NCBI RefSeq assembly: GCF_002214565.1
Contig: NZ_CP015106.1
Location: 558,001 to 622,000 of the forward strand
Direction: 5' to 3'
From: Thermococcus radiotolerans
GTDB taxonomy: Archaea > Methanobacteriota_B > Thermococci > Thermococcales > Thermococcaceae
DNA length: 64,000 nucleotides
In this document: positions 11 to 24,429 of the stretch, one piece after another
How the letters are laid out: each line of letters starts with the position of its first letter
How positions within the stretch are numbered: position 1 is the stretch's first letter
Notes under the pieces: model-generated
The model's database searches: none
The model's input: only the letters and a program-made list of their open reading frames with translations
What the model was told of the DNA's origin: nothing
Made by a program: the position numbers and the translations under genes

Positions 11-1621
11 ATGATTCTGGGAATCCACGACGGTCACGACGCGGGTGCGGCGCTCATTGACAGGGGTAGGGTATTCGCCGTCAACGAGGAGAGGCTCAAC
101 AGGGTCAAGAAGTACAGGGGCTTTCCGGTCCTGAGCGTGCGGAAAGTCCTGGAGATGGCGGGAGCTGGTCCAGAAGACGTTGAAATCATAGCCGTTGCGG
201 GCATATTCCGGAAGCAGAAACGACTTCTTGAGCTTGAGGGGAACCTCCGCGCACTCTTCGGGCCCGAGTTTAAACGGAAGATCCTTTTCGTTGAGCATCA
301 CCTAGCCCATTCGGCATCGGCCTACTACACCTCTGGCTGGAGAGATGCTCTCGCCGTAAGCATTGATGCCGCTGGAGACGGACTGAGCTCCTCGATTTAC
401 GTCGCGAGAGATGGGGAGATGGTCAGGATAGCCCAGAGCACCTACCTCGACTCCCTGGGGGATTTCTACGCCTCCGTTACCGAGCTTCTGGGCTTCAAAC
501 CGATGCGCCACGAGGGCAAGGTAATGAGTCTCGCCGCCTACGGGAGGCCAACCTACGATTTAAGCTCGATCATAGAGCTCAACGGGCTAAGCTTCGACAA
601 TCATCTCGGGCTCATCGGGATCGAAGCAACGAGGAAGCTCGCCGAGTTCTTTGGCTATCCCCTTTCGAAGGCAAAGGAAACTGCCATGGAAATGAAGCGC
701 GGAAAGCTTGAGGGTAAGCTCCAGAAAAAGGCCATGGAGATAGCGGCAAGCGCTCAGGCCCATCTGGAGAGGCTGATTGAGGAGCTGGGAGTTAAACTAA
801 CGGATAGAGGCCTTCCCATTGCCTACGCTGGGGGAGTTGCCCAGAACGTCAAGGCGAACGCGGTTCTGAGGAAAATCTTTGGAGACGATAACCTCTGGGT
901 CTTCCCGGCGATGGACGACGGAGGCCTGGCCTTCGGAGCGGCGGTTTTTGCGAAGGCACAGATGGATAGGCTTGACGGAAGATGGAGACCGTTCAGGCTG
1001 GAGCACGTTTACCTCGGCCCGGATTATTCCAGCGAACAGGTTGAGGAATTCCTGAGGAACGGGGGCGTTGAGTTCGAGGAGGTTGACGTTTCCGGTTTCG
1101 TGTCGGACGCCTTGGCCGAGGGCAAGCTGGTCGGTTTCTTCCAGGGCAGTATGGAGTTCGGGCCGAGGGCTTTGGGAAACCGCTCGATTTTAGCCGACCC
1201 GAGGGATGAGACCGTTAAGGAGAGGCTCAACGTTGCCCTGAAGCGCGACGTCTTCCAGCCATTCGCGCCTTCGCTGCTGTGGGAGAAGGCTGAGGAGTAC
1301 CTCGAAGACCTCAACGGAAGGCCCAACGAGTTCATGACCATGAGCTACACCGCGAGCGAAAGCTTCAGGGAGCTCGCTCCAGCCGTCGTTCACGTGGACG
1401 GCACAACGAGGCCGCAGGCTGTGAGAGAGGAAATCAACCCGACTTACTACGGGATAATCAAAGCCTTCGAGCGGAAGACCGGCATGGGCGCGGTGCTGAA
1501 CACAAGCTTCAACATGCACGGAGAGCCCATAGTCTGCTCGCCGGAGGACGCGCTGAGAACGTTCAGGAACGCGGGACTCGATGTGCTGGTCATCGAGGGC
1601 TTCGCCGTCCATGGGCGCTGA
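11..1621 (+). CDS. Carbamoyltransferase, NodU/CmcH family
   Basis: 536 aa, near the family's usual length of about 530-600. The N-terminal ASKHA-like half starts MILGIHDGHDAGAAL and carries the metal-site segment EHHLAHSASAYY (about residues 95-106). The C-terminal carbamoyltransferase domain has MEFGPRALGNRSILADPRD (about 380-398) and LNTSFNMHGEPIV (about 495-507). The family moves a carbamoyl group from carbamoyl phosphate to a hydroxyl or similar acceptor. The acceptor here is unknown, and no glycan or antibiotic cluster is adjacent. The ATG at 11 is preceded by only ten bases, so its promoter lies outside the window. It converges with an unknown gene one base downstream of its stop. Confidence 0.9.
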   Translation: MILGIHDGHDAGAALIDRGRVFAVNEERLNRVKKYRGFPVLSVRKVLEMAGAGPEDVEIIAVAGIFRKQKRLLELEGNLRALFGPEFKRKILFVEHHLAHSASAYYTSGWRDALAVSIDAAGDGLSSSIYVARDGEMVRIAQSTYLDSLGDFYASVTELLGFKPMRHEGKVMSLAAYGRPTYDLSSIIELNGLSFDNHLGLIGIEATRKLAEFFGYPLSKAKETAMEMKRGKLEGKLQKKAMEIAASAQAHLERLIEELGVKLTDRGLPIAYAGGVAQNVKANAVLRKIFGDDNLWVFPAMDDGGLAFGAAVFAKAQMDRLDGRWRPFRLEHVYLGPDYSSEQVEEFLRNGGVEFEEVDVSGFVSDALAEGKLVGFFQGSMEFGPRALGNRSILADPRDETVKERLNVALKRDVFQPFAPSLLWEKAEEYLEDLNGRPNEFMTMSYTASESFRELAPAVVHVDGTTRPQAVREEINPTYYGIIKAFERKTGMGAVLNTSFNMHGEPIVCSPEDALRTFRNAGLDVLVIEGFAVHGR

Positions 1622-1622
1622 G

Positions 1623-2054
1623 TTAGAGCAGTGCCCTAAGGAAGGCTAGGGACAGCCTCACCATCTGCAGCTTGCCCCTCACCTCAATGTTTTTCAGGCC
1701 GAAGATTGTCGGATTGGCCTTGAACCCCATCACCATGACTTCCTGCCCCTGGTACATGAGGAACACAGTTTTCCCTTCCTCGTCCAGCCTGTTCGCCACC
1801 TCCTCAAGGCCCTTCAGCTGCTTCAGAACCTCCAGCTTCCCGGTGATGCCCCCTTCCCCTTCCCTCATCTTCATGAGTGGGGAGGCCACCTCGAGCAACT
1901 TCCCGGCGTCGATTATGTCGACCACCACGTCATCCCTGGTGATCCGAATGAGAACCCCCTCTGCCGAAACCTCGAGCGAACCGCTGACTATAAGGTTCTG
2001 GAGCTTCAGGGCGCTCTCAAGCAGGCTCCCAGCGTCCACGGGCACCACCGGCAC
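1623..2054 (-). CDS. Hypothetical protein, 143 aa
   Basis: I do not recognise this family. The protein is soluble, with no signal peptide or membrane segment, an acidic middle (KMREGEGGITGKLEVLKQLKGL) and a hydrophobic C-terminal end. It follows the small gene at 2073-2366 by 18 bases on the same strand, so the two probably form a bicistron. The start is uncertain: GTG at 2054 gives MPVVPVDAG, while GTG at 2039 sits behind an internal GGTGGTG. Codon use looks normal for the window, and it ends one base from the convergent carbamoyltransferase gene, so I treat it as real. Confidence 0.7.
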   Translation of the reverse strand: MPVVPVDAGSLLESALKLQNLIVSGSLEVSAEGVLIRITRDDVVVDIIDAGKLLEVASPLMKMREGEGGITGKLEVLKQLKGLEEVANRLDEEGKTVFLMYQGQEVMVMGFKANPTIFGLKNIEVRGKLQMVRLSLAFLRALL

Positions 2055-2072
2055 GGGATAAAAGGAGATGCC

Positions 2073-2366
2073 TCACTCCTTCCTGAGAGGCACTATCTTC
2101 AGGGTTATCTCGCCGTCCAGGGTTAGCTTGGTGAACTTCAGGTGAATTTCCGTCTCGGTTCCCTGAACCGCATCGAAGACCTTCCCCATGTCGACCTTTG
2201 GGAGGAGTGCCTGCTTCACCTCCACGAGGGTGGCTATAATCTCGTCTATCTGGGCCGCGGATATCCCTGGCACCTGCTCCTTCAGTTCCTTGAGTTCGTC
2301 AACGGCCTTTCCCAGCTTCTCAATCGACTCCTCATCGACGGGAGGTTCCCTCTTTTCCTCGGGCAT
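2073..2366 (-). CDS. Hypothetical acidic helical protein, 97 aa
   Basis: I do not recognise this family. The first 60 residues are charged and helical (EESIEKLGKAVDELKELKEQ), probably a short coiled coil. They are followed by a stretch with beta-like alternation (ETEIHLKFTKLTLDGEITLKIVPL). No signal peptide or membrane segment is present. The ATG is preceded by GGGGTGATC, a good ribosome binding site. It is probably cotranscribed with the unknown gene immediately downstream, so the two products may act together, but nothing in the sequence says how. Confidence 0.72.
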   Translation of the reverse strand: MPEEKREPPVDEESIEKLGKAVDELKELKEQVPGISAAQIDEIIATLVEVKQALLPKVDMGKVFDAVQGTETEIHLKFTKLTLDGEITLKIVPLRKE

Positions 2367-2500
2367 GTGATCACCCCTTGCAACACTGGTTAATGTTGGT
2401 TCTCATGGTATTTACCCTTTTTCGGTTTACTATTACGTGCCCCACTTCAGACATCAGTGAACCTTTAAGCACTTCGATGAACATCTTTTCGTTGAGGTAA

Positions 2501-2510
2501 AGTTATAAAC
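2501..2510 (+). promoter_or_regulatory. TATA box of the aminotransferase gene
   Basis: AGTTATAAAC lies 30 bp before the ATG at 2540, which predicts a very short leader. The rest of the divergent gap 2367-2530 shows no further structure that I can support. Confidence 0.6.
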
Positions 2511-2539
2511 ATTGCTCCCAAACTCCTTCGGTGATGCTT

Positions 2540-3709
2540 ATGGCGCTGAGCGACAGGCTGGAACTCGTCAACCCTTCTGAGATTAGGAAGCTCTTTGACC
2601 TTGCCCAGGGTGTTGAGGGTCTCATCTCACTCGGAATTGGTGAACCAGACTTCGACACCCCTGAACATATCAAGGAGTATGCGAAGGAAGCCCTCGACAG
2701 GGGGATGACCCACTACGGGCCGAACGCGGGTTTAATGATGCTCAGGGAGGCCCTCGCGTGGAAGCTGAAGGAGCAGAACGACATCGAGGTTGATCCGAAG
2801 ACCCAGATCATGGTGACCGTCGGGGCGAACCAGGCTTTTCTGATGGGATTCGCGGCCTTTCTGAAGGACGGGGAGGAGGTTCTCATCCCGAGCCCGATGT
2901 TCGTCAGCTACGCCCCAACGGTTCTCCTTGCGGGCGGAAAGCCCGTTGAAGTCCCAACCTACGAGGAGAACGAGTTCAGGCTTAGCGTTGACGACCTCGA
3001 GAAGCACGTTACGGACAAAACAAGGGCCATCATAATAAACAGCCCAAACAATCCGACCGGTGCTGTCCTCACCAAGAAGGACCTCGAGGAGATAGCGGAC
3101 TTCGCCGTTGAGCACGACCTCATAGTCTTCAGCGACGAGGTCTACGAACACTTCGTCTACGACGGCGTTAAGAACCACAGCATAGCCTCCCTCGACGGCA
3201 TGTTTGAGCGCACTCTCACCATCAACGGTTTCTCCAAGACCTTTGCCATGACCGGCTGGCGCCTCGGATTCGTGGCCGCCCCCGAGTGGATAATCGAGAG
3301 GATGACCCGCTTCCAGATGTACAACGCCACTTGTCCGGTTACGTTCGCCCAGTACGCGGCGGCGAAGGCCCTGAAGGACGAACGCAGCTGGAAAGCCGTC
3401 GAAGAGATGCGGAAAGAGTACGACAGGAGAAGGCACCTCGTCTGGAAGCGCCTGAACGAGATGGGACTTCCGACGGTCAAGCCCAAGGGAGCGTTCTACA
3501 TCTTCCCGCGCGTGAGGGACACCGGCCTGACCAGCAAGGAGTTCAGCAAGCTGATGCTCCTGGAGGCCAAGGTCGCCGTCGTCCCGGGTTCGGCTTTCGG
3601 AAGCGCCGGGGAGGGTTACATCAGGATAAGCTACGCGACGGCCTACGAGCAGCTCGAAGAGGCCATGGACAGGATGGAAAAAGTGCTGAAGGAGAAGAAG
3701 CTCGTTTAA
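2540..3709 (+). CDS. Aromatic aminotransferase, PLP fold type I
   Basis: A class I/II aminotransferase of 389 aa from the chosen start. The sequence closely follows the Pyrococcus horikoshii aromatic aminotransferase (PH1371, structure solved) as I remember it, including the start MALSDRLELV and the PLP-lysine segment NGFSKTFAMTGWRLGF. SPNNPTGAVL and SDEVYEHFVYD are the cofactor-contacting motifs. It transfers the amino group of aromatic amino acids to 2-oxoglutarate, the first step of peptide-based catabolism in Thermococcales. GTG 2531 and ATG 2534 are also in frame, but ATG 2540 fits the family and lies behind GGTGATG. Its stop overlaps the convergent phosphoesterase by 4 bp. Confidence 0.93.
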   Translation: MALSDRLELVNPSEIRKLFDLAQGVEGLISLGIGEPDFDTPEHIKEYAKEALDRGMTHYGPNAGLMMLREALAWKLKEQNDIEVDPKTQIMVTVGANQAFLMGFAAFLKDGEEVLIPSPMFVSYAPTVLLAGGKPVEVPTYEENEFRLSVDDLEKHVTDKTRAIIINSPNNPTGAVLTKKDLEEIADFAVEHDLIVFSDEVYEHFVYDGVKNHSIASLDGMFERTLTINGFSKTFAMTGWRLGFVAAPEWIIERMTRFQMYNATCPVTFAQYAAAKALKDERSWKAVEEMRKEYDRRRHLVWKRLNEMGLPTVKPKGAFYIFPRVRDTGLTSKEFSKLMLLEAKVAVVPGSAFGSAGEGYIRISYATAYEQLEEAMDRMEKVLKEKKLV

Positions 3710-17575: not shown

Positions 17576-18148
17576 ATGGTGATAATCCCCCGCCCGATAG
17601 ACCCGAGGGAGATAAGGCGAATCAGGAAGGAACTCGACATAACCCAGGAGGAGCTCGCGGAAAAGGCAGGCGTGACCCAAGCTTACATCGCCAAACTTGA
17701 GGCGGGGAAGGTTGACCCCAGGCTCTCGACCTTCAATCGGATTCTCCAGGCCCTGTTGGAATGCAAGAAGGCCCAGCTCAAGGCGAAGGACGTCATGTCC
17801 TCCCCGGTCATCTCGGTCAAGCCCTATGAGCTCGTCGAAAACGTCATCAAGATAATGAACGAGCACAACATCTCCCAGATTCCAGTCATAGCGGGCAACA
17901 AGGTCGTCGGCTCGGTGACGGAGCGAACGCTGGTCAGGCAAAGCCTTGAGTACGAGGACATCTACGACCGAAAGGTCATGGAGGTAATGGAGGAGCCCTT
18001 CCCCATAGTCAACGAGGACGAAGACCTCGAGGTCGTCAAGTATCTGCTGGAGGAACACCCGGCCGTTCTCGTTCAGAACAGGGAGGGGAAAGTTGAAGGC
18101 ATCATAACCCGAGTGGACATATTCAGGATTGGAAAGGGGAAGGAGTAA
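17576..18148 (+). CDS. HTH (XRE) regulator with paired CBS domains
   Basis: 190 aa. Residues 8-62 form an XRE-type helix-turn-helix (IRRIRKELDITQEELAEKAG, then VTQAYIAKLEAGKVDP). Residues about 70-188 hold two CBS domains (DVMSSPVISVKPYELVENVI; VMEVMEEPFPIVNEDEDLE). CBS pairs bind adenine nucleotides such as AMP, ATP or SAM, so this is a ligand-sensing transcription factor. Such fusions are common in archaea and their targets are mostly unknown. The ATG follows CTGGTGGTTATGT. It is transcribed separately from the H/ACA RNA just upstream. Confidence 0.9.
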   Translation: MVIIPRPIDPREIRRIRKELDITQEELAEKAGVTQAYIAKLEAGKVDPRLSTFNRILQALLECKKAQLKAKDVMSSPVISVKPYELVENVIKIMNEHNISQIPVIAGNKVVGSVTERTLVRQSLEYEDIYDRKVMEVMEEPFPIVNEDEDLEVVKYLLEEHPAVLVQNREGKVEGIITRVDIFRIGKGKE

Positions 18149-18243: not shown

Positions 18244-19455
18244 ATGAGGAAGCTGCCAATCACGTTGATTCTTTTCGTCGTTCTCTTGTCCCAGTACGTC
18301 AGTGCCACAAGCATAGCGGTTGACGTTTCACACAATGAGGGAACGGTCGCGCTCGTCTCACCGATAGTCGACCCAACAACCGGGCGAATCGTTGCAGAGG
18401 GCATCATACCGACCCTATCGTGGTACGAGTGGGGCTACATAGGATACAGCCCGGAGCTGAGGAAGGCAAAGGTCGTCCATCTGGGGAGCACCATAACCTA
18501 CGACGCCCTGAAAAACGTGGACGTCCTGGTGATCGGACAGCTGTGGGAGGGTCTCTCACAGGATGAGATAGCCGCCATCGTGAGATGGTTCTCCGAGGGA
18601 GGAAAGGTCCTGTGGGTCTCCGGAGACTGCGACAGGAAGGAGAGCGCCTACGTACAGCGCAACGCCAACGAACTCCTCTCCGCTATACCCGGGGTAAAGC
18701 TCAGAATAGACTACGCCACGGCAAAGGATACGTTCAGCAACGCTGGAAAGAGCGCCTACGTTTCCGGCTTCGTGAGGGTTGACCTTGAAACCCCCGACGC
18801 GAACGTTCTCAACAGGGGATACCAGGGGGAGATTGGCAAGGTCCTCTTCCACGAACCCGGCGTCCTGGCGTGGGTGGACGGCGATGGCAAATGGCACCCC
18901 CTAGTGGCGGGGGAGATTCCGGATGGCGTCTATAGGATAGTCACGACCAGCGGCAACGGAGTGATAGAGGACGACTATCCCCCAGAGGCAAGGACGTACA
19001 AGGCATGGGAGCAGGGACTGTTCACGCTCCTAGCGGCGGAGTTCGTAAAGCTTCCCAATGGGGCGGAGAGCATTCTCATAGTCAGCGCCGAAAGTCCCTA
19101 CGGCAGCCCGGTGCCGATATGGGTCAACAGGTACGGCAGCTACCTCTTCGACGGCCAGCAGTTCGTTACAAACCTTCTCCAGTGGGCGACCCTCGAGGCC
19201 TCCAGGATGAAGCCCGCGGTGGAGACAACGACGACAACCACCTCTTCAAAAACGACGACAACAACCACTACAACTCACAGCACGTCCAGCGTCACAACCA
19301 CCACAACAACCACCACGCAGGAGAGTGCTACTGCGGACGTCACCACCACGACAACGTCGACCTCCGGGGGAACGCCCCTCTGGATCATAGGGGTCATCAT
19401 TGTCCTGCTCATAGGAACCGCTGCCCTGGTGTTCCTGCTCATCAAGAGGCCGTGA
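18244..19455 (+). CDS. Surface-anchored protein with Thr-rich stalk
   Basis: 403 aa. A signal peptide (RKLPITLILFVVLLSQYVSA) is followed by an extracellular domain with a class I amidotransferase-like text (VDVLVIGQLWEGLSQDEIAAIVRW, then EGGKVLWVSGDCD). Residues about 325-375 are a threonine-rich stalk, probably O-glycosylated. A C-terminal membrane helix (WIIGVIIVLLIGTAALVFLL) and KRP tail anchor it. The layout is that of Thermococcales cell-surface proteins. No catalytic Cys-His-Glu triad is evident, so a binding or structural role is as likely as an enzyme. The next gene also carries a Thr-rich spacer. Confidence 0.82.
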   Translation: MRKLPITLILFVVLLSQYVSATSIAVDVSHNEGTVALVSPIVDPTTGRIVAEGIIPTLSWYEWGYIGYSPELRKAKVVHLGSTITYDALKNVDVLVIGQLWEGLSQDEIAAIVRWFSEGGKVLWVSGDCDRKESAYVQRNANELLSAIPGVKLRIDYATAKDTFSNAGKSAYVSGFVRVDLETPDANVLNRGYQGEIGKVLFHEPGVLAWVDGDGKWHPLVAGEIPDGVYRIVTTSGNGVIEDDYPPEARTYKAWEQGLFTLLAAEFVKLPNGAESILIVSAESPYGSPVPIWVNRYGSYLFDGQQFVTNLLQWATLEASRMKPAVETTTTTTSSKTTTTTTTTHSTSSVTTTTTTTTQESATADVTTTTTSTSGGTPLWIIGVIIVLLIGTAALVFLLIKRP

Positions 19456-19550
19456 GGCCGTCTCTTCTTTTTCCTTGATGGCAAAAATATCCAACAACTT
19501 TATATACCTTCGGCCAAATCAGTGATGGACAAATAATCCAGGTGATGCAT

Positions 19551-21410
19551 ATGAAGAAGACCGCCGTCTTGCTCATGATTCTCATGCTGGGCGCGGTTAT
19601 GGCCGCGGGTTGTATCGGCGGAAATGCCACCACAACCACGGGCAGTGGAAGCCCCAGCGAGAGCCACTCGCCGCTGACCACAACGACGTCCAGCGCCTCT
19701 GAATTCGAAACAACCACATCCTCCGTGGAGAGCCACTATCCCATCACCGTCACGGATTTTGTGAACAGAACGGTCACGATAGAATCCGAGCCCAAGCGCG
19801 TCGTCACCATCGCCCCGAGCATAACTGAGGACCTCTACTACCTCGGTCTCTTCGACCGGGTTGTCGGGGTCACCGACTTTGACGACTTTCCTCCAGGAGT
19901 TGCGAACGTTACGAGGATAGGCGGCTACGGGAAGTACGCGAACCTTGAGGTCATAGCGTCGCTTAACCCCGACCTGATACTCGTTGACAGCTTTTCGATG
20001 GCCATCCTCGGCGACCTTGAAAAGATAGCCCCGGTAGTAGTCGTTGACCCTCACAGCGTGAACGACATCCCGAGGGCGCTTGAGCTCCTTGGGGGGGTCT
20101 TCAACGTACGGGAGAGCGCCAAGAAGGCCACTGCCGAGTTCCAGGAAGGGATAAAGGCGATAAGTTCGATGGTCGCAGGGGAGCCCAAGGTTGAAGTCTT
20201 CTACGTCGTCTGGAGCAACCCGCTCATGACGGCTGGAGGAGGAACCTTCATCAGCGACATTATCGAGCTAGCCGGCGGGGAGAACATCTTCAGCGACACC
20301 ACGGGCTGGCCGACGGTGAGCCCCGAACAGGTGCTGGAGCGCGACCCGGAGGTAATACTGCTCACCCCACACTGCGGCATGACCGTTCAGGACGTCTACA
20401 AAGGGCCGCTGGCGAACACGAAGGCCGCCAGGGAGGGCAGGGTCTACGTGATTGAGAACGAGAACGACCTTATACACCCCAGCCCCCGCGTTGTTATGGG
20501 ACTTGAGGCCGTGGCAAAGCTCCTTCATCCCGACGCCTTCCAGGTGAGTTATCCCATCACCGTCATCGACTTTGCCGGGAGGAAGGTCACCCTCGAGAGC
20601 GAGCCCCAGAGGATAGTCTCGCTCGCACCCAGCATAACTGAGAGCCTGTTCTACATAGGCGCGGGAGATAAGGTCGTTGGCGTGACCGACTACGACGACT
20701 TCCCGCCGGCGGTGAAGAACATCACCAGGGTCGGCGGCTACGGCAAATACGCCAACCTGGAAACCATAGCATCTCTCCAGCCGGACCTCATACTCGCGGA
20801 CGGCTTTTCCACTGACATCCTCGACAGCCTGGAGAGGATAGCTCCGGTTATCATAGTCGACCCCAAGAACATCACGGATATTTACAACGCCCTCGAGTTG
20901 CTCGGCAGGGTAACCAACCGTGAGGAGGGGGCGAGGTCTGTTGCAGCCGAGATGAAGGCGGAGGTGAGCTACGTCTCCGCGATGGTCGCCGGGAAGCCAA
21001 AAGTCAGGACGTTCTTCATCCTCAGCTACTACAACGGCTACTGGACGGCCGGAGCGGGAACCTTCGTCAACGACCTCATAACCCTCGCCGGCGGAGAGAA
21101 CATCTTCGACGATGTAAGCGGCTGGGGAGCGGCGAGCGAGGAGCAGATAATCGCAAGAAACCCGGAGGTCATCATAATCTCACCGAACGCGGGGATAAAG
21201 CCCGAGGACCTCTGTTCGGGCCCGCTCTCCGAGGTTGATGCGGTCAAGAACGGGCACGTTTACGTCCTCAGCGATGAGAACCTCGTGGTCAGGCCCGGTC
21301 CGAGGATAGTCCACGGCCTCGAGGAGATAGCGGAATACCTGCATCCAGACGTCTTCAACTACCAGCCCCAGCCGCTCGCGTGCAACGCCACCGCTTCGGC
21401 TGGAGGCTGA
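19551..21410 (+). CDS. Solute-binding lipoprotein with two fused BtuF-like domains
   Basis: 619 aa from MKKTAVLLMILML, behind AGGTGATGCAT. The lipobox VMAAGC ends at about Cys22, followed by a Thr/Ser-rich spacer. Two class III (BtuF/FepB) binding domains follow in tandem, at about residues 65-330 and 335-610. Each opens with YPITV-DF--R-VT-ESEP-R-V, then APSITE-L-Y, then VGGYGKYANLE and PDLIL. They probably bind a siderophore, haem or corrinoid outside the cell for an ABC importer. Bacterial homologs have one domain. No permease or ATPase of an importer is adjacent, since the ABC genes downstream are on the other strand and are of exporter type. Confidence 0.92.
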   Translation: MKKTAVLLMILMLGAVMAAGCIGGNATTTTGSGSPSESHSPLTTTTSSASEFETTTSSVESHYPITVTDFVNRTVTIESEPKRVVTIAPSITEDLYYLGLFDRVVGVTDFDDFPPGVANVTRIGGYGKYANLEVIASLNPDLILVDSFSMAILGDLEKIAPVVVVDPHSVNDIPRALELLGGVFNVRESAKKATAEFQEGIKAISSMVAGEPKVEVFYVVWSNPLMTAGGGTFISDIIELAGGENIFSDTTGWPTVSPEQVLERDPEVILLTPHCGMTVQDVYKGPLANTKAAREGRVYVIENENDLIHPSPRVVMGLEAVAKLLHPDAFQVSYPITVIDFAGRKVTLESEPQRIVSLAPSITESLFYIGAGDKVVGVTDYDDFPPAVKNITRVGGYGKYANLETIASLQPDLILADGFSTDILDSLERIAPVIIVDPKNITDIYNALELLGRVTNREEGARSVAAEMKAEVSYVSAMVAGKPKVRTFFILSYYNGYWTAGAGTFVNDLITLAGGENIFDDVSGWGAASEEQIIARNPEVIIISPNAGIKPEDLCSGPLSEVDAVKNGHVYVLSDENLVVRPGPRIVHGLEEIAEYLHPDVFNYQPQPLACNATASAGG

Positions 21411-21474: not shown

Positions 21475-21642
21475 ATGGAGCGAAAGACGTTCTACAGAAT
21501 CCTGCTCGTCATTGTCATCATCCTCACGGTCATCTACACCCTCGGAATAATGGGCCTTATACCCTTCCAGTGGAGCTACTACATCACGATATTCATGATA
21601 ATCCTCTTCTTGGCCCTCAGGATAGAGAAAAGACGTCAGTAG
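21475..21642 (+). CDS. Small membrane protein, 55 aa, two TM
   Basis: Starts MERKTFYRILLVIVIILTVIY at ATG 21475 behind GGTGGGAAC. Two hydrophobic helices (about 8-27 and 33-48) end in a basic tail, IEKRRQ. I recognise no family. It overlaps the convergent ABC permease by 7 bp. The frame is open upstream to 21415, but the ribosome binding site favours 21475. Confidence 0.7.
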   Translation: MERKTFYRILLVIVIILTVIYTLGIMGLIPFQWSYYITIFMIILFLALRIEKRRQ

Positions 21643-22349
21643 AGGGCCTTTAGCCTCCTCACGGAGAGGGTGATAAAGACCAGACCGATCAGAAGGAGCG
21701 CCAGAAGGGCGTAGAGCGGTGCCACGATGTCGTAGTAGTACAGCATCGAGTACCTGAGCCCCTCAACCGAGTACGTCATGGGCGTTAAGAGACCCACCGC
21801 AACGAACCACTTCGGAAAGAGGGTCAGTGACGCCAACGCCCCGCTGGTGAATATCATCGGGAGCCTGAGCAGGTTGAGCCATGTCATGACGTTTATCGGG
21901 TTCTCAACGGCGAGGGATACGTAGACGCCGAAGGAGGAGAAGGCCACGTTGGCCAGGATGAGGAAGAGGGCCGTCAGCGGCCAGTTCCAGACCGGATACA
22001 CCATGAAGTACCTCACAAGGAGTAGGGTCACGAGGCTAACCATGAGGCCGAAGAGCGAGCCGACGAGAACCTTGGCGATGACTATTTCCCCGTATCTGAT
22101 GGGGGCCAGAAGAAGGCGCTCGAACGTCTTCAGCCGCCTTTCGAAGATCAGCGACGATGAGACGAAGGACGTGGTCGCGAAGAGGGATGAGATGCTGATC
22201 AAGCCGGGGGCGAGGTGGTCAACGTCCCCGAAGCGGACGATGAAGGCGAGGGTGAATACCAGGGGAAATATAAGTCCCCAGCTGATTGAACCCGGCTTCA
22301 GAAGGTACTCCTTGAGCTCCTTGTTCACTATGACGAGAACCCTTTTCAT
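21636..22349 (-). CDS. ABC-2 type permease
   Basis: 237 aa from ATG 22349, which overlaps the ATPase stop as ATGA and follows GGGGGTGCCCGAT. Six membrane segments are arranged as in ABC-2 exporters, with the amphipathic entry KELKEYLLKPGS and the loop RRLKTFERLLLAPIRYGEIVIAKV-like text typical of the family. It forms the transport channel with the ATPase encoded just upstream. The substrate is unknown; drug, lipid or polysaccharide export are the usual options. It is the last gene of a three-gene unit with the beta-propeller protein. Confidence 0.9.
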   Translation of the reverse strand: MKRVLVIVNKELKEYLLKPGSISWGLIFPLVFTLAFIVRFGDVDHLAPGLISISSLFATTSFVSSSLIFERRLKTFERLLLAPIRYGEIVIAKVLVGSLFGLMVSLVTLLLVRYFMVYPVWNWPLTALFLILANVAFSSFGVYVSLAVENPINVMTWLNLLRLPMIFTSGALASLTLFPKWFVAVGLLTPMTYSVEGLRYSMLYYYDIVAPLYALLALLLIGLVFITLSVRRLKALY

Positions 22350-23287
22350 ATCGGGCACCCCCCGCAGGTCGCCGGGCGGATCCGCTCCTCGTTCTCATCC
22401 GTGAGCTCGAGAAAGACCTCCTCTATGCTCGGAAGCTCCGTGGAGACGTGCCTCACAACGAGTCCGAGCTCGTCTTTGACTTCCCAGAACTCCCCAAGGA
22501 ATTTGTCCGGGTCTTCGACAGTTACCACGATCGAATCCTCGTCAAACGTGGGGTTGTAGGGCTCCAGGAACTTTAAAAGCCTGTTGCTGATGGGCTCTAC
22601 CTTGAGCCTGACCCTCACCCCAGCCCCCACGAGCTTCCTCAGCTCGTTCCTCTTTCCCAGGGCGACTATTTTTCCCCGGTTGATTATCGCTATCCTGTGT
22701 GGGAGAACCTCGGCCTCCGCCATGTTGTGGGTCGTCAGGAATATGGTCTTCCCCATCTTGTTGAGCGCCAGTATCATCTCCCTGACGAGCTTGGCGGACT
22801 GAACATCCAGGGCCACTGTTGGTTCGTCCATGAAGAGCACCGGCGGTTCGTGGATGAGTGCCGCCGCGATGGTTGCCCTCCGCCTATAACCGGAGCTGAG
22901 CTTTCCGAACTTTCTCTTCGGGGGAAGGTTGAAGTCCTTTATCAGGCGGGAGACGTTTTCCAGCGGGGCGTCGTAGAGCCTCGCCAGGAAGCGGAGGTTC
23001 TCCTCAACCGTCAGCTCATCGTACAGGTTGGAAACGTCTGGAACCACGCCGATGCTGCGCTTAACGTCCAGCCGCTGGGTTCTAACGTCGTACCCGTTCA
23101 CGTAGGCTTCGCCCGCCGTTATGGATGTCAGCGTTGAGAGCATCCTCACGGTGGTCGTTTTTCCCGCCCCGTTGGGGCCCAGGAAGCCAAATATCTCCCC
23201 CTTTTTAACATCGAAGCTTATCCCATCGACGGCAGTGAAGTCGCCGTACATCTTCGTGAGTTCCCTCGCCTCTATAACCGGCCTCAC
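22346..23287 (-). CDS. ABC exporter ATPase
   Basis: 313 aa from GTG 23287, which overlaps the upstream stop (GTGA) and has GGAGGG before it. An in-frame TTG at 23305 is less likely. Walker A GPNGAGKTT, signature LSSGYRRRATIAAAL (a variant of LSGGQ), Walker B VLFMDEPT and the H-loop TTHNM are all seen. A C-terminal accessory domain of about 100 residues ends in a Cys pair (ATCGGCPI). It powers the ABC-2 permease encoded next. The arrangement matches DrrA-type exporter ATPases. Confidence 0.93.
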   Translation of the reverse strand: MRPVIEARELTKMYGDFTAVDGISFDVKKGEIFGFLGPNGAGKTTTVRMLSTLTSITAGEAYVNGYDVRTQRLDVKRSIGVVPDVSNLYDELTVEENLRFLARLYDAPLENVSRLIKDFNLPPKRKFGKLSSGYRRRATIAAALIHEPPVLFMDEPTVALDVQSAKLVREMILALNKMGKTIFLTTHNMAEAEVLPHRIAIINRGKIVALGKRNELRKLVGAGVRVRLKVEPISNRLLKFLEPYNPTFDEDSIVVTVEDPDKFLGEFWEVKDELGLVVRHVSTELPSIEEVFLELTDENEERIRPATCGGCPI

Positions 23288-24429
23288 TCTCTCATCTCCC
23301 TCCAAAGGAGTGCGATTACCAGAAGGACGAGCGCACCCAGTCCGACCGCCACGAGGGGACTTCCGAGTTCCCTCCTGAGCGGCGTTTCAGGGGGTTGGGT
23401 GGAAAGACTCTCCCCGAGGCTCATGAAGTCAACGTTTGCCTCGCAGATGTCCTTGCCGTGGAACCTGCGCGAGAGCGCTAGATACCTCGCTCCAGGGGAT
23501 ATCGCGACCTTCTCAACGGTCTCGTTGGGGGAGTAGTCCCAGAGGATCGTCCCGTTCGGGGCCACGAAGATGGCCTCATCGCCGCCGGTGGCGAGGGTAT
23601 AACCCTCGGCGGTCGCCACATCGGTGATGAGGAGGTAGAACGGAACCGAATAAACCTGATTGCCGTCCCTGTCGAGGAGAACGACCTCGTTAAGGTTGCC
23701 TCCCAGGGCTATCCCGTTTCCATCGAACTCCATGTCCCTGATGAGACCATCGAACTTCCTCTCCCAGAGCTTCTCTCCCTTCCAGCTGAAGGCGTAAATG
23801 GAACTCCATGTTTCGTCCGGGGAAACCACGAGGGCAACGACCATCTCTCCATCTCCAGCGACTTTCTTCACATCCCCCGGAAGGGTGAGGTTGAAAATGG
23901 GCGTTCCGTCATCCCGGAAGGCGACAGACCTACCCCCATCGCCCCCGACGAGTATTCTATTCCCCACGAGGTCGACGCTCCAGAGGTACGAGCCTATGTT
24001 CCTCTTCCACACCGGCTTCATGTCCCTGAAGAAGTATACGAAGCCATCAACGTTTCCCGCTACCGCAGTTCTCCCGTCCCGGGAGATGTCCACACTGTAA
24101 ACGACGTTTTCGGTCTTGTACTCCTTCAAAAGCTTCCCGTGAGGGTCAAAGAACTGGACCCAGTTGCCGTCGGTTCCGACGATGACGGTTCCGTTCTCAC
24201 TAACCGCGACCGAATAGGCAAAGCCCCTCACAGGGGCCTTGAACTCCCTGCTCCCGTTGGGCTGAAGGAGTATGGCGTCGTAACCAAAGCCGAGGGCAAG
24301 GTCGCCTCTATCGTTGAAGGCCATGGAAAACACTATGCATTCGTCATGGTACGTCCAGTCCCAGCTGGGCTGGGCGCTCACGGGCATCAGAGTGATGAGA
24401 ATCAGGATGAGAGGTAGGGGCCATCTCAT
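23284..24429 (-). CDS. Secreted membrane-anchored beta-propeller protein
   Basis: 381 aa from MRWPLPLILILITLMPVSA, a clear signal peptide. The body consists of seven or so short repeats with a G-x-x-x-x-x-x-D-G-x pattern (VIVGTDGNWVQFFDPHGKLL; AVAGNVDGFVYFFRD; ILVGGDGGRSVAF; TLATGGDEAIFVAPNGTI), a PQQ/WD40-like propeller. A C-terminal helix (LVAVGLGALVLLVIALLW) anchors it. It is the first gene of the unit with the ABC exporter, overlapping it by 4 bp, so it may be an extracellular partner of that exporter. The exact role is unknown. Confidence 0.82.
   Translation of the reverse strand: MRWPLPLILILITLMPVSAQPSWDWTYHDECIVFSMAFNDRGDLALGFGYDAILLQPNGSREFKAPVRGFAYSVAVSENGTVIVGTDGNWVQFFDPHGKLLKEYKTENVVYSVDISRDGRTAVAGNVDGFVYFFRDMKPVWKRNIGSYLWSVDLVGNRILVGGDGGRSVAFRDDGTPIFNLTLPGDVKKVAGDGEMVVALVVSPDETWSSIYAFSWKGEKLWERKFDGLIRDMEFDGNGIALGGNLNEVVLLDRDGNQVYSVPFYLLITDVATAEGYTLATGGDEAIFVAPNGTILWDYSPNETVEKVAISPGARYLALSRRFHGKDICEANVDFMSLGESLSTQPPETPLRRELGSPLVAVGLGALVLLVIALLWREMRE

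Follow-up and report, generated by a model that had tools for sequence, protein, structure and literature searches.

The gene at positions 19551-21410 of the window, as the whole 64-kb stretch of DNA analysed here is called, encodes a 619-residue lipoprotein in which two BtuF-like solute-binding domains share one lipid anchor. The explanation that we favour as a whole, and consider quite likely, is that this is a lipid-anchored two-domain corrinoid binder serving an unlinked BtuC2D2 importer. The grade is a compound one, because ligand and partner are held with high confidence and the idea that both domains dock stands at roughly even odds. Proteins of the BtuF kind are known; the two-domain form is new. 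No description of the tandem protein was found in the open-licence literature searched, and the available portions of PMC4870337, PMC5662663 and PMC8305020 held nothing decisive.

Architecture of the tandem lipoprotein

The window comes from a single-contig genome of 1.87 Mb, referred to below as the host, and the gene lies on the plus strand with its ATG at 19551 and its stop at 21410. A signal peptide with a lipobox (...AAGC; 19551-19613) ends at C21, which is invariant in two alignments. It is followed by a Ser/Thr-rich stretch (residues 22-62, 19614-19736) that is predicted with low confidence (pLDDT below 50 for residues 11-59) and is a probable spacer between the membrane and the domains. 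The N-terminal class III solute-binding protein (SBP) domain (residues 63-330, 19737-20540) and its C-terminal counterpart (residues 334-603, 20550-21359) are separated by a junction of three residues (331-333, 20541-20549). It has the same length in every one of the 52 tandem rows where the boundary pattern was located, with one genome entering twice. A tail carrying Cys611 completes the protein (21360-21407), and no membrane-domain family was detected in the chain.

The first-pass annotation had called the gene a lipoprotein with two tandem class III SBP domains, and this is borne out by the lipobox cysteine, by two matches to PF01497 and by the fold of both halves. The Pfam search found PF01497 twice in the protein with 216.6 bits, and the genome search gave 115.6 and 106.4 bits for the two halves against a cut-off of 27.5. 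These domains lie at C1:577800-578456 and C1:578613-579272 on the chromosome. An alignment of the two halves with each other spans 270 columns at 55.9% identity and scores 321 bits (E 8e-116); the best of 20 shuffled controls reached 20.4 bits. This agrees with the old, diverged duplication that had also been proposed, and the trees described below prefer a single such event.

The predicted structure has a mean pLDDT of 88.5 and a pTM of 0.82. Both halves of this model (residues 60-331 and 334-603) match solved class III SBPs in Foldseek, and the match ranges give each half a two-lobed cluster A-II fold. Vibrio cholerae BtuF (5ysc) aligns with the model at Z 26.0 and rmsd 3.0 over 247 residues, and Escherichia coli BtuF (1n2z) at Z 25.3 and rmsd 2.9 over 239. 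The ligand cannot be named by fold alone, because iron and haem SBPs match the predicted model as well as the BtuF structures or better; the best solved structures by sequence also include iron- and haem-type SBPs. The NCBIfam BtuF model NF002894 falls short of its cut-off (219 bits summed over both halves, cut-off 234), and so does TIGR04281, which describes PGF-CTERM-anchored SBPs (318.9 bits summed over the two halves, cut-off 325). The end of the protein lacks the C-terminal PGF motif; an N-terminal lipobox is present instead.

Residues of functional interest in BtuF have counterparts in both halves. Two docking-type glutamates (E133 and E259 in the N domain, E404 and E531 in the C domain) are kept in all 139 domains that were compared in trees (51 N, 51 C and 37 from single-domain proteins), and a cleft tryptophan (W253 and W525, respectively) is kept just as universally. 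They align with E72, E202 and W196 of BtuF, whose numbering was assigned by hand. The equivalent glutamates of BhuT, E94 and E231, form salt bridges to R84 of the permease BhuU, according to the available part of PMC5136619. The pocket aromatics of BtuF are Y50, W66, W85, F162, F168 and W196, and W66 of the E. coli protein tunes cobinamide affinity (PMC5269720, available part). Here, the Y50, W66 and W196 columns are aromatic in both halves. The W66 column, which lies next to a gap, has Tyr in both halves of this protein and Gly, Asp or Phe in other groups. Neither the W85 column (Asp or mostly Thr) nor the F162 column (mostly Val or Ser) is aromatic. The earlier suggestion that one ligand might be held between the two domains is unlikely to be right, since both lobes of an SBP, along with separate docking residues, are present in each half.

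A probable importer partner, corrinoid context and a common upstream element

No FecCD-type importer adjoins the tandem gene, just as the first-pass annotation had observed. The upstream flank (18244-19455) encodes an exported-looking protein with a sub-threshold Pfam match only, and the downstream flank (21636-23305) an ABC-2-type ATPase/permease pair. The window also contains a gene for an XRE-HTH and CBS-pair protein (17576-18148), the family of which is present in 18 of 59 SBP loci surveyed (58 genomes, G002 contributing two loci, with flanks of up to 4 kb, some cut by contig ends). It was considered as a regulator and showed no link to the 15-bp element described below.

The same annotation supposed that the lipoprotein serves a transporter elsewhere and proposed a search for orphan FecCD-type permeases, and one such permease exists. 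Two FecCD permeases exceed the cut-off in the host genome. One lies inside a complete SBP-permease-ATPase operon (L038). The other, P0002 (C1:1304773-1305792), stands upstream of an ATPase gene, P0003, with no SBP gene alongside. This orphan btuC-btuD pair (C1:1304773-1306517), about 0.73 Mb from the tandem gene, is a strong candidate for the partner. The top NCBIfam matches are BtuC models for P0002 and a haem-importer ATPase model for P0003, all of them under cut-off.

An orthologue of P0002 (at least 55% identity) is present in 88 of 94 Thermococcales genomes, and the other six are assemblies of 61-82% completeness. Not one of the 59 SBP loci contains a BtuC homologue of the P0002 cluster, and the SBP is likewise missing from all 21 BtuC loci examined. 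Across 45 same-contig pairs from 44 genomes the smallest spacing between the two genes is 36 kb (G075), a value that hinges on single-contig chromosomes being treated as circular; some genome lengths in this list are rounded, and it omits G044 and G072, whose pairs are more than 400 kb apart. One near-complete genome (G074) has one PF01497 match and one FecCD match, and these are the two orthologues, 49 kb apart. Outside Thermococcales a BtuC-like open reading frame lies near the SBP gene in at least 32 of 56 loci, a count based on a crude choice of frames that surely misses some.

The neighbourhood of the SBP gene in relatives points to corrinoids. CobQ is encoded in 19 of the 59 loci (8 of 22 tandem and 11 of 37 single-domain loci), and among these 19, CobT is encoded in 17, CobY in 15, CbiZ in 14 and CobS in 13. 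Family names come from one example each; TIGR00313, TIGR00303 and TIGR00317 were matched above their cut-offs, and the CobY- and CbiZ-like examples fell below those of NCBIfam. A uracil-DNA-glycosylase-like neighbour in five single-domain loci was kept out of the salvage count. One radical SAM family is found in six of the 59 loci, and in one of them its gene (L106:5833-6618) separates the tandem SBP gene from cobQ.

The host has a salvage cluster of its own at C1:438-449 kb, with genes for CbiZ (PF01955), CobT, CobQ, a CobY-like protein, CobS, CobZ, CbiB and a CobD-like protein. It has no SBP gene, and the tandem lies about 130-140 kb away. In relatives with the cluster, the SBP gene sits beside or between cobT and cobQ. 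In the host these two genes are directly divergent (L263:1433-3965, about C1:439.4-442.0 kb). The SBP gene has thus probably changed its place. CbiC, an enzyme of corrin-ring synthesis, was found in none of the 94 Thermococcales genomes by a search that was positive in 7 of 14 controls, and CobS was found in 77 (above cut-off in 72). With the salvage cluster present and CbiC not found, the organism is one that salvages corrinoids and, to judge by this single marker, lacks ring synthesis.

A further link between the SBP and the orphan importer is a 15-bp element, TGGACAAATAATCCA, an imperfect inverted repeat with arms TGGA/TCCA. The only copy in the window is at 19526-19540, 10 bases 5' of the ATG. 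A degenerate second copy with four mismatches, TGGCAAAAATATCCA, lies at 19479-19493, beyond a TATA-like stretch, and a similar copy is present in many relatives. Some match to TGGACAAATAATCCA with up to three mismatches is expected in 64 kb by itself. Exact copies are another matter: 0.0018 are expected from the base composition of the 1.87-Mb genome, versus two found. One is at the tandem gene and the other at btuC, where it ends on the first base of the start codon as called.

The pattern extends to relatives. The best copy at the SBP start region has at most two mismatches in 78 of 88 upstream rows and three or four in the remaining 10; G019 is counted twice here, and the region searched reaches into the open reading frame, starts being uncertain. 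A copy with at most two mismatches precedes BtuC in 19 of 20 cases, and the one exception (G005) has none within three mismatches. The form TGGAYAAATWATCCA was found in 77 of 94 genomes and its reversed control in none of the 94. Among the matches listed, 61 are exact copies of TGGACAAATAATCCA, with 37 before an SBP gene, 20 before BtuC and four elsewhere. All four of these lie 19 bases 5' of a gene from one family of exported-looking proteins of about 450 residues: L258:1629-2981 (minus strand, G023), L259:3035-4456 (plus, G039), L260:3035-4387 (plus, G070) and L261 around 1614-2997 (minus, G071). The L261 copy has an early stop in frame, and the L260 protein has no Pfam or NCBIfam match. The family is a candidate new member of the corrinoid regulon. 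One further exact copy, in G093, lies between the gene for a B12-binding mutase subunit and meaB. The host has a two-mismatch copy at the same meaB position, where methylmalonyl-CoA epimerase follows, and a second two-mismatch copy 86 bases 5' of the ATG of the gene upstream of meaB, which resembles the G093 mutase subunit.

By gene content, then, the element reads as the mark of a B12 regulon, and TGGACAAATAATCCA is its probable operator. The fit is not universal. The consensus element is absent from 12 of 74 good genomes and from eight of the nine genomes of genus g3. A variant, TGGATAAATTATCCA, is moreover found at genes for which a connection to B12 is not apparent, twice in the host. It recurs in different genomes near the same two genes, one for an ABC-2-like permease (L231, L245) and one for a protein starting MADVK or MTDVK (L235, L247). 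A variant of the element also lies 5' of an ArsR-family HTH gene in three genomes (L234:812-1396, L238:1069-1656 and L256:795-1382), one of which is the host (C1:1545143, two mismatches). This gene is a candidate for the regulator, or may mark a separate regulon. A CBL-box is reportedly found before B12 genes in some archaea, and a hypothetical B12 regulator is said to have been proposed for it. TGGACAAATAATCCA is probably this archaeal CBL-box, a term that had no occurrence in the open-licence literature searched.

Because of the common element, the co-occurrence and the absence of each gene from the other's loci, the orphan BtuC/BtuD pair is very probably the importer fed by the tandem lipoprotein. 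The gene context in relatives, the pathway content and the common element likewise make a corrinoid, and not haem or a ferric chelate, the likely ligand. Taken jointly, corrinoid ligand and BtuCD partnership are claims in which we place strong confidence, going by sequence comparison.

Distribution and history of the tandem

The first-pass annotation had called ligand binding by two such domains unusual for a BtuF/FepB type; that the layout itself is rare is not borne out. A relative at E 1e-30 or better is present in 92 of 94 Thermococcales genomes. The tandem form is found in 54, the single-domain form in 37 and a fragment only in G045. The 54 include G049, G053 and G066, where a contig end truncates the gene, G023, where the frame is broken, and G016, where the leader falls outside the open frame. 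Within Thermococcales the tandem is confined to genera g1 and g5. The annotation had named many known archaeal tandems with a defined single-ligand role as what would refute it; half of this holds, the tandem being common in Thermococcales, but no paper on it turned up in the open-licence literature searched.

The single-domain proteins resemble the C half. They align best within residues 329-619 in 36 of 37 genomes, the exception (G003) aligning with the N half. When single-domain genes of g1 were checked for chimerism, 30-column bins mostly favoured the C half, with near ties at the domain start.

How often did the duplication occur? Trees of the 139 domains cluster strongly without a clean split into N and C. 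In the first tree the N domains of eight tandems (five from g5, plus G046, G052 and G063) group with single-domain rows, and two independent duplications were considered. Tests on constrained trees disfavour this. Forcing all 51 N domains together on the full alignment gave a log-likelihood 35 above that of the free quick tree, with a p-AU of 0.81. The columns of the second lobe alone make the 51 N domains one clade with support 99, and those of the first lobe do not reject the grouping (p-AU 0.38). These p-AU values and the second-lobe clade are why we prefer, as a reading that is not proven, one duplication followed by homogenisation of the first lobe in some lineages. Some single-domain proteins (G020/G072, G029/G040 and G034) nest among C domains, which suggests two or three losses of the N half.

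Other arrangements came to light in passing. G109 has a 576-residue frame that is a possible tandem. Some Thermococcales also have a second, remoter family of tandem class III SBPs (frames of about 706-774 residues, 30-36% identity), exemplified by L215:5899-8076, in which PF01497 is found twice. By coordinates, this remoter tandem adjoins its own FecCD gene (G086, G087, G089-G092 and others), unlike the tandem studied here. Three loci of Candidatus Dadabacteria (L200, L206, L225), at first candidates for tandems, turned out to have a pair of distinct, neighbouring SBP genes, with a BtuD-like gene after them and, in two of the three, a BtuC-like gene too. These pairs are a possible unfused counterpart of the tandem.

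What two domains on one anchor might do

The protein is like BtuF of E. coli and V. cholerae in its fold, its docking glutamates, its cleft tryptophan and its aromatic Y50 and W66 columns, and in having a FecCD/BtuC-type permease with an ATPase as its likely partner. It is unlike BtuF in having two domains per lipid-anchored chain and unlinked partner genes, in its non-aromatic W85 and F162 columns, and in an invariant TPHCG loop in the N domain. Single-domain orthologues in Thermococcales belong to the same family and have the same upstream element but only one domain, and where the salvage cluster is seen their gene adjoins cobT and cobQ. A functional parallel for two domains is GlnPQ, in which two SBPs in series serve one ABC importer and the same questions of affinity and delivery arise; there a 14-residue linker connects the two SBPs, which are joined to the membrane domain (PMC8025302, available part). 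In contrast, the tandem is a separate class III lipoprotein with a three-residue junction, and GlnPQ belongs to another importer type.

The mechanism that we propose is as follows. The organism would make no corrin ring and would live on salvaged and remodelled corrinoids, as the marker genes tested show. When corrinoid is scarce, a regulator acting at the common 15-bp element would let the tandem gene and btuCD be co-expressed; the element is observed, and we infer the regulator, its ligand and the direction of control. At the cell surface the two BtuF-type domains on one anchor would bind cobalamin or cobinamide, and, judging from the conserved residues and the fold, each would close on one corrinoid in its own cleft. 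Either domain could then dock by pairing its two glutamates with arginines of BtuC, and so deliver the ligand. The second site would be a tethered reserve that raises the local ligand concentration or widens the corrinoid range, much as in GlnPQ. Finally, once imported, the corrinoid would be remodelled by CbiZ, CobQ, CbiB, CobY, CobS and CobT, whose genes are observed, to supply B12 enzymes such as methylmalonyl-CoA mutase; the flux is presumed. The version with two equivalent docking sites has about an even chance of being correct.

What if the two halves are not equivalent? They may differ in corrinoid specificity, for example with one taking complete cobamides and the other cobinamide or corrinoids with other lower ligands. 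This is a serious possibility to which we give somewhat less than an even chance. Several positions would suit it. The F168 column has Met, Thr or once Gln in N domains and Trp or Tyr in C domains, H309 stands against R581 in 43 Thermococcus-type tandems, and the TPHCG loop (residues 272-276, 20364-20378) is found in all 51 N domains and there only. However, the position of W66 is Tyr in both halves of this protein.

A division of labour is a less likely arrangement, though one to keep in mind. Here, the C half alone would dock and deliver, and the N half would scavenge or store corrinoid and pass it on. It is the C half that resembles the single-domain orthologues, which evidently suffice, and the place of some of these within the C domains of the tree would suit a loss of the N half. 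The cysteines also differ. Cys555 is present in all 51 C and all 37 single domains and in none of the 51 N domains. Cys275, in the TPHCG loop, is in none of the C or single domains. Counted from the start of the domain, each of the 37 single-domain proteins has exactly two cysteines. Of 51 tandem frames longer than 560 residues, among which one genome figures twice, 43 have three. Most simply, Cys555 and Cys611 would form a disulphide and Cys275 would be unpaired. The N half lacks this pair and has an invariant loop of its own. What does not fit is the conservation of both docking glutamates in 51 of 51 N domains, since a domain that never docks would have no use for them.

An invariant unpaired cysteine is odd in an exported protein of a heat-loving archaeon, which suggests that Cys275 has a function. 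One idea, and a rather improbable one, is that the N domain grips cobalt directly, with Cys275 as an axial thiolate ligand or His274 as an imidazole ligand. The TPHCG loop aligns with a stretch of BtuF, starting near residue 217, which is helical in the presence of cobalamin and disordered with cobinamide. If cobalt is gripped in this way, the N half might accept corrinoids that are base-off or incomplete, or remove a tightly bound upper ligand, and then pass the product to the C half or to BtuC. We know of no SBP with a cobalt-coordinating cysteine. A precedent from a membrane protein of another kind is the corrinoid uptake protein BtuM, in which a cysteine is an axial cobalt ligand (PMC6072759, available part); it bears on the Cys275 idea alone.

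The first-pass annotation had named haem, corrinoids and ferric chelates together as ligands to try. Context, pathway and element uphold the corrinoids and speak against the others. Haem or a ferric siderophore is very improbable, even though matches by fold and sequence include haem- and iron-type SBPs and PF01497 covers both, because some relatives have the gene among salvage genes, CbiC is missing, the control element is common to btuC and, with two mismatches, meaB, and a ligand of this kind would suit the complete operon L038 better. Weaker still is the notion that the N half is a decaying, functionless relic of the duplication: its apparent repeated loss would suit this, but none of the 51 N domains deviates in the docking glutamates, the cleft Trp, the TPHCG loop or W221, and the N half is about as identical to relatives as the C half is.

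The preferred reading, a two-domain corrinoid binder for an unlinked BtuCD, thus proposes a ligand, a partner and a regulon for a protein that family libraries name by sub-threshold or general models only. It would give a likely route of B12 uptake to an order in which CbiC was not detected, and the element offers a DNA site with which an archaeal B12 regulator might be fished out. A natural experiment is on offer, since the same BtuCD orthologue would work with one SBP domain in some related Thermococcales and with two in others. Because the one- and two-domain forms share BtuCD, the role of a second tethered domain in a type II ABC importer is open to test.
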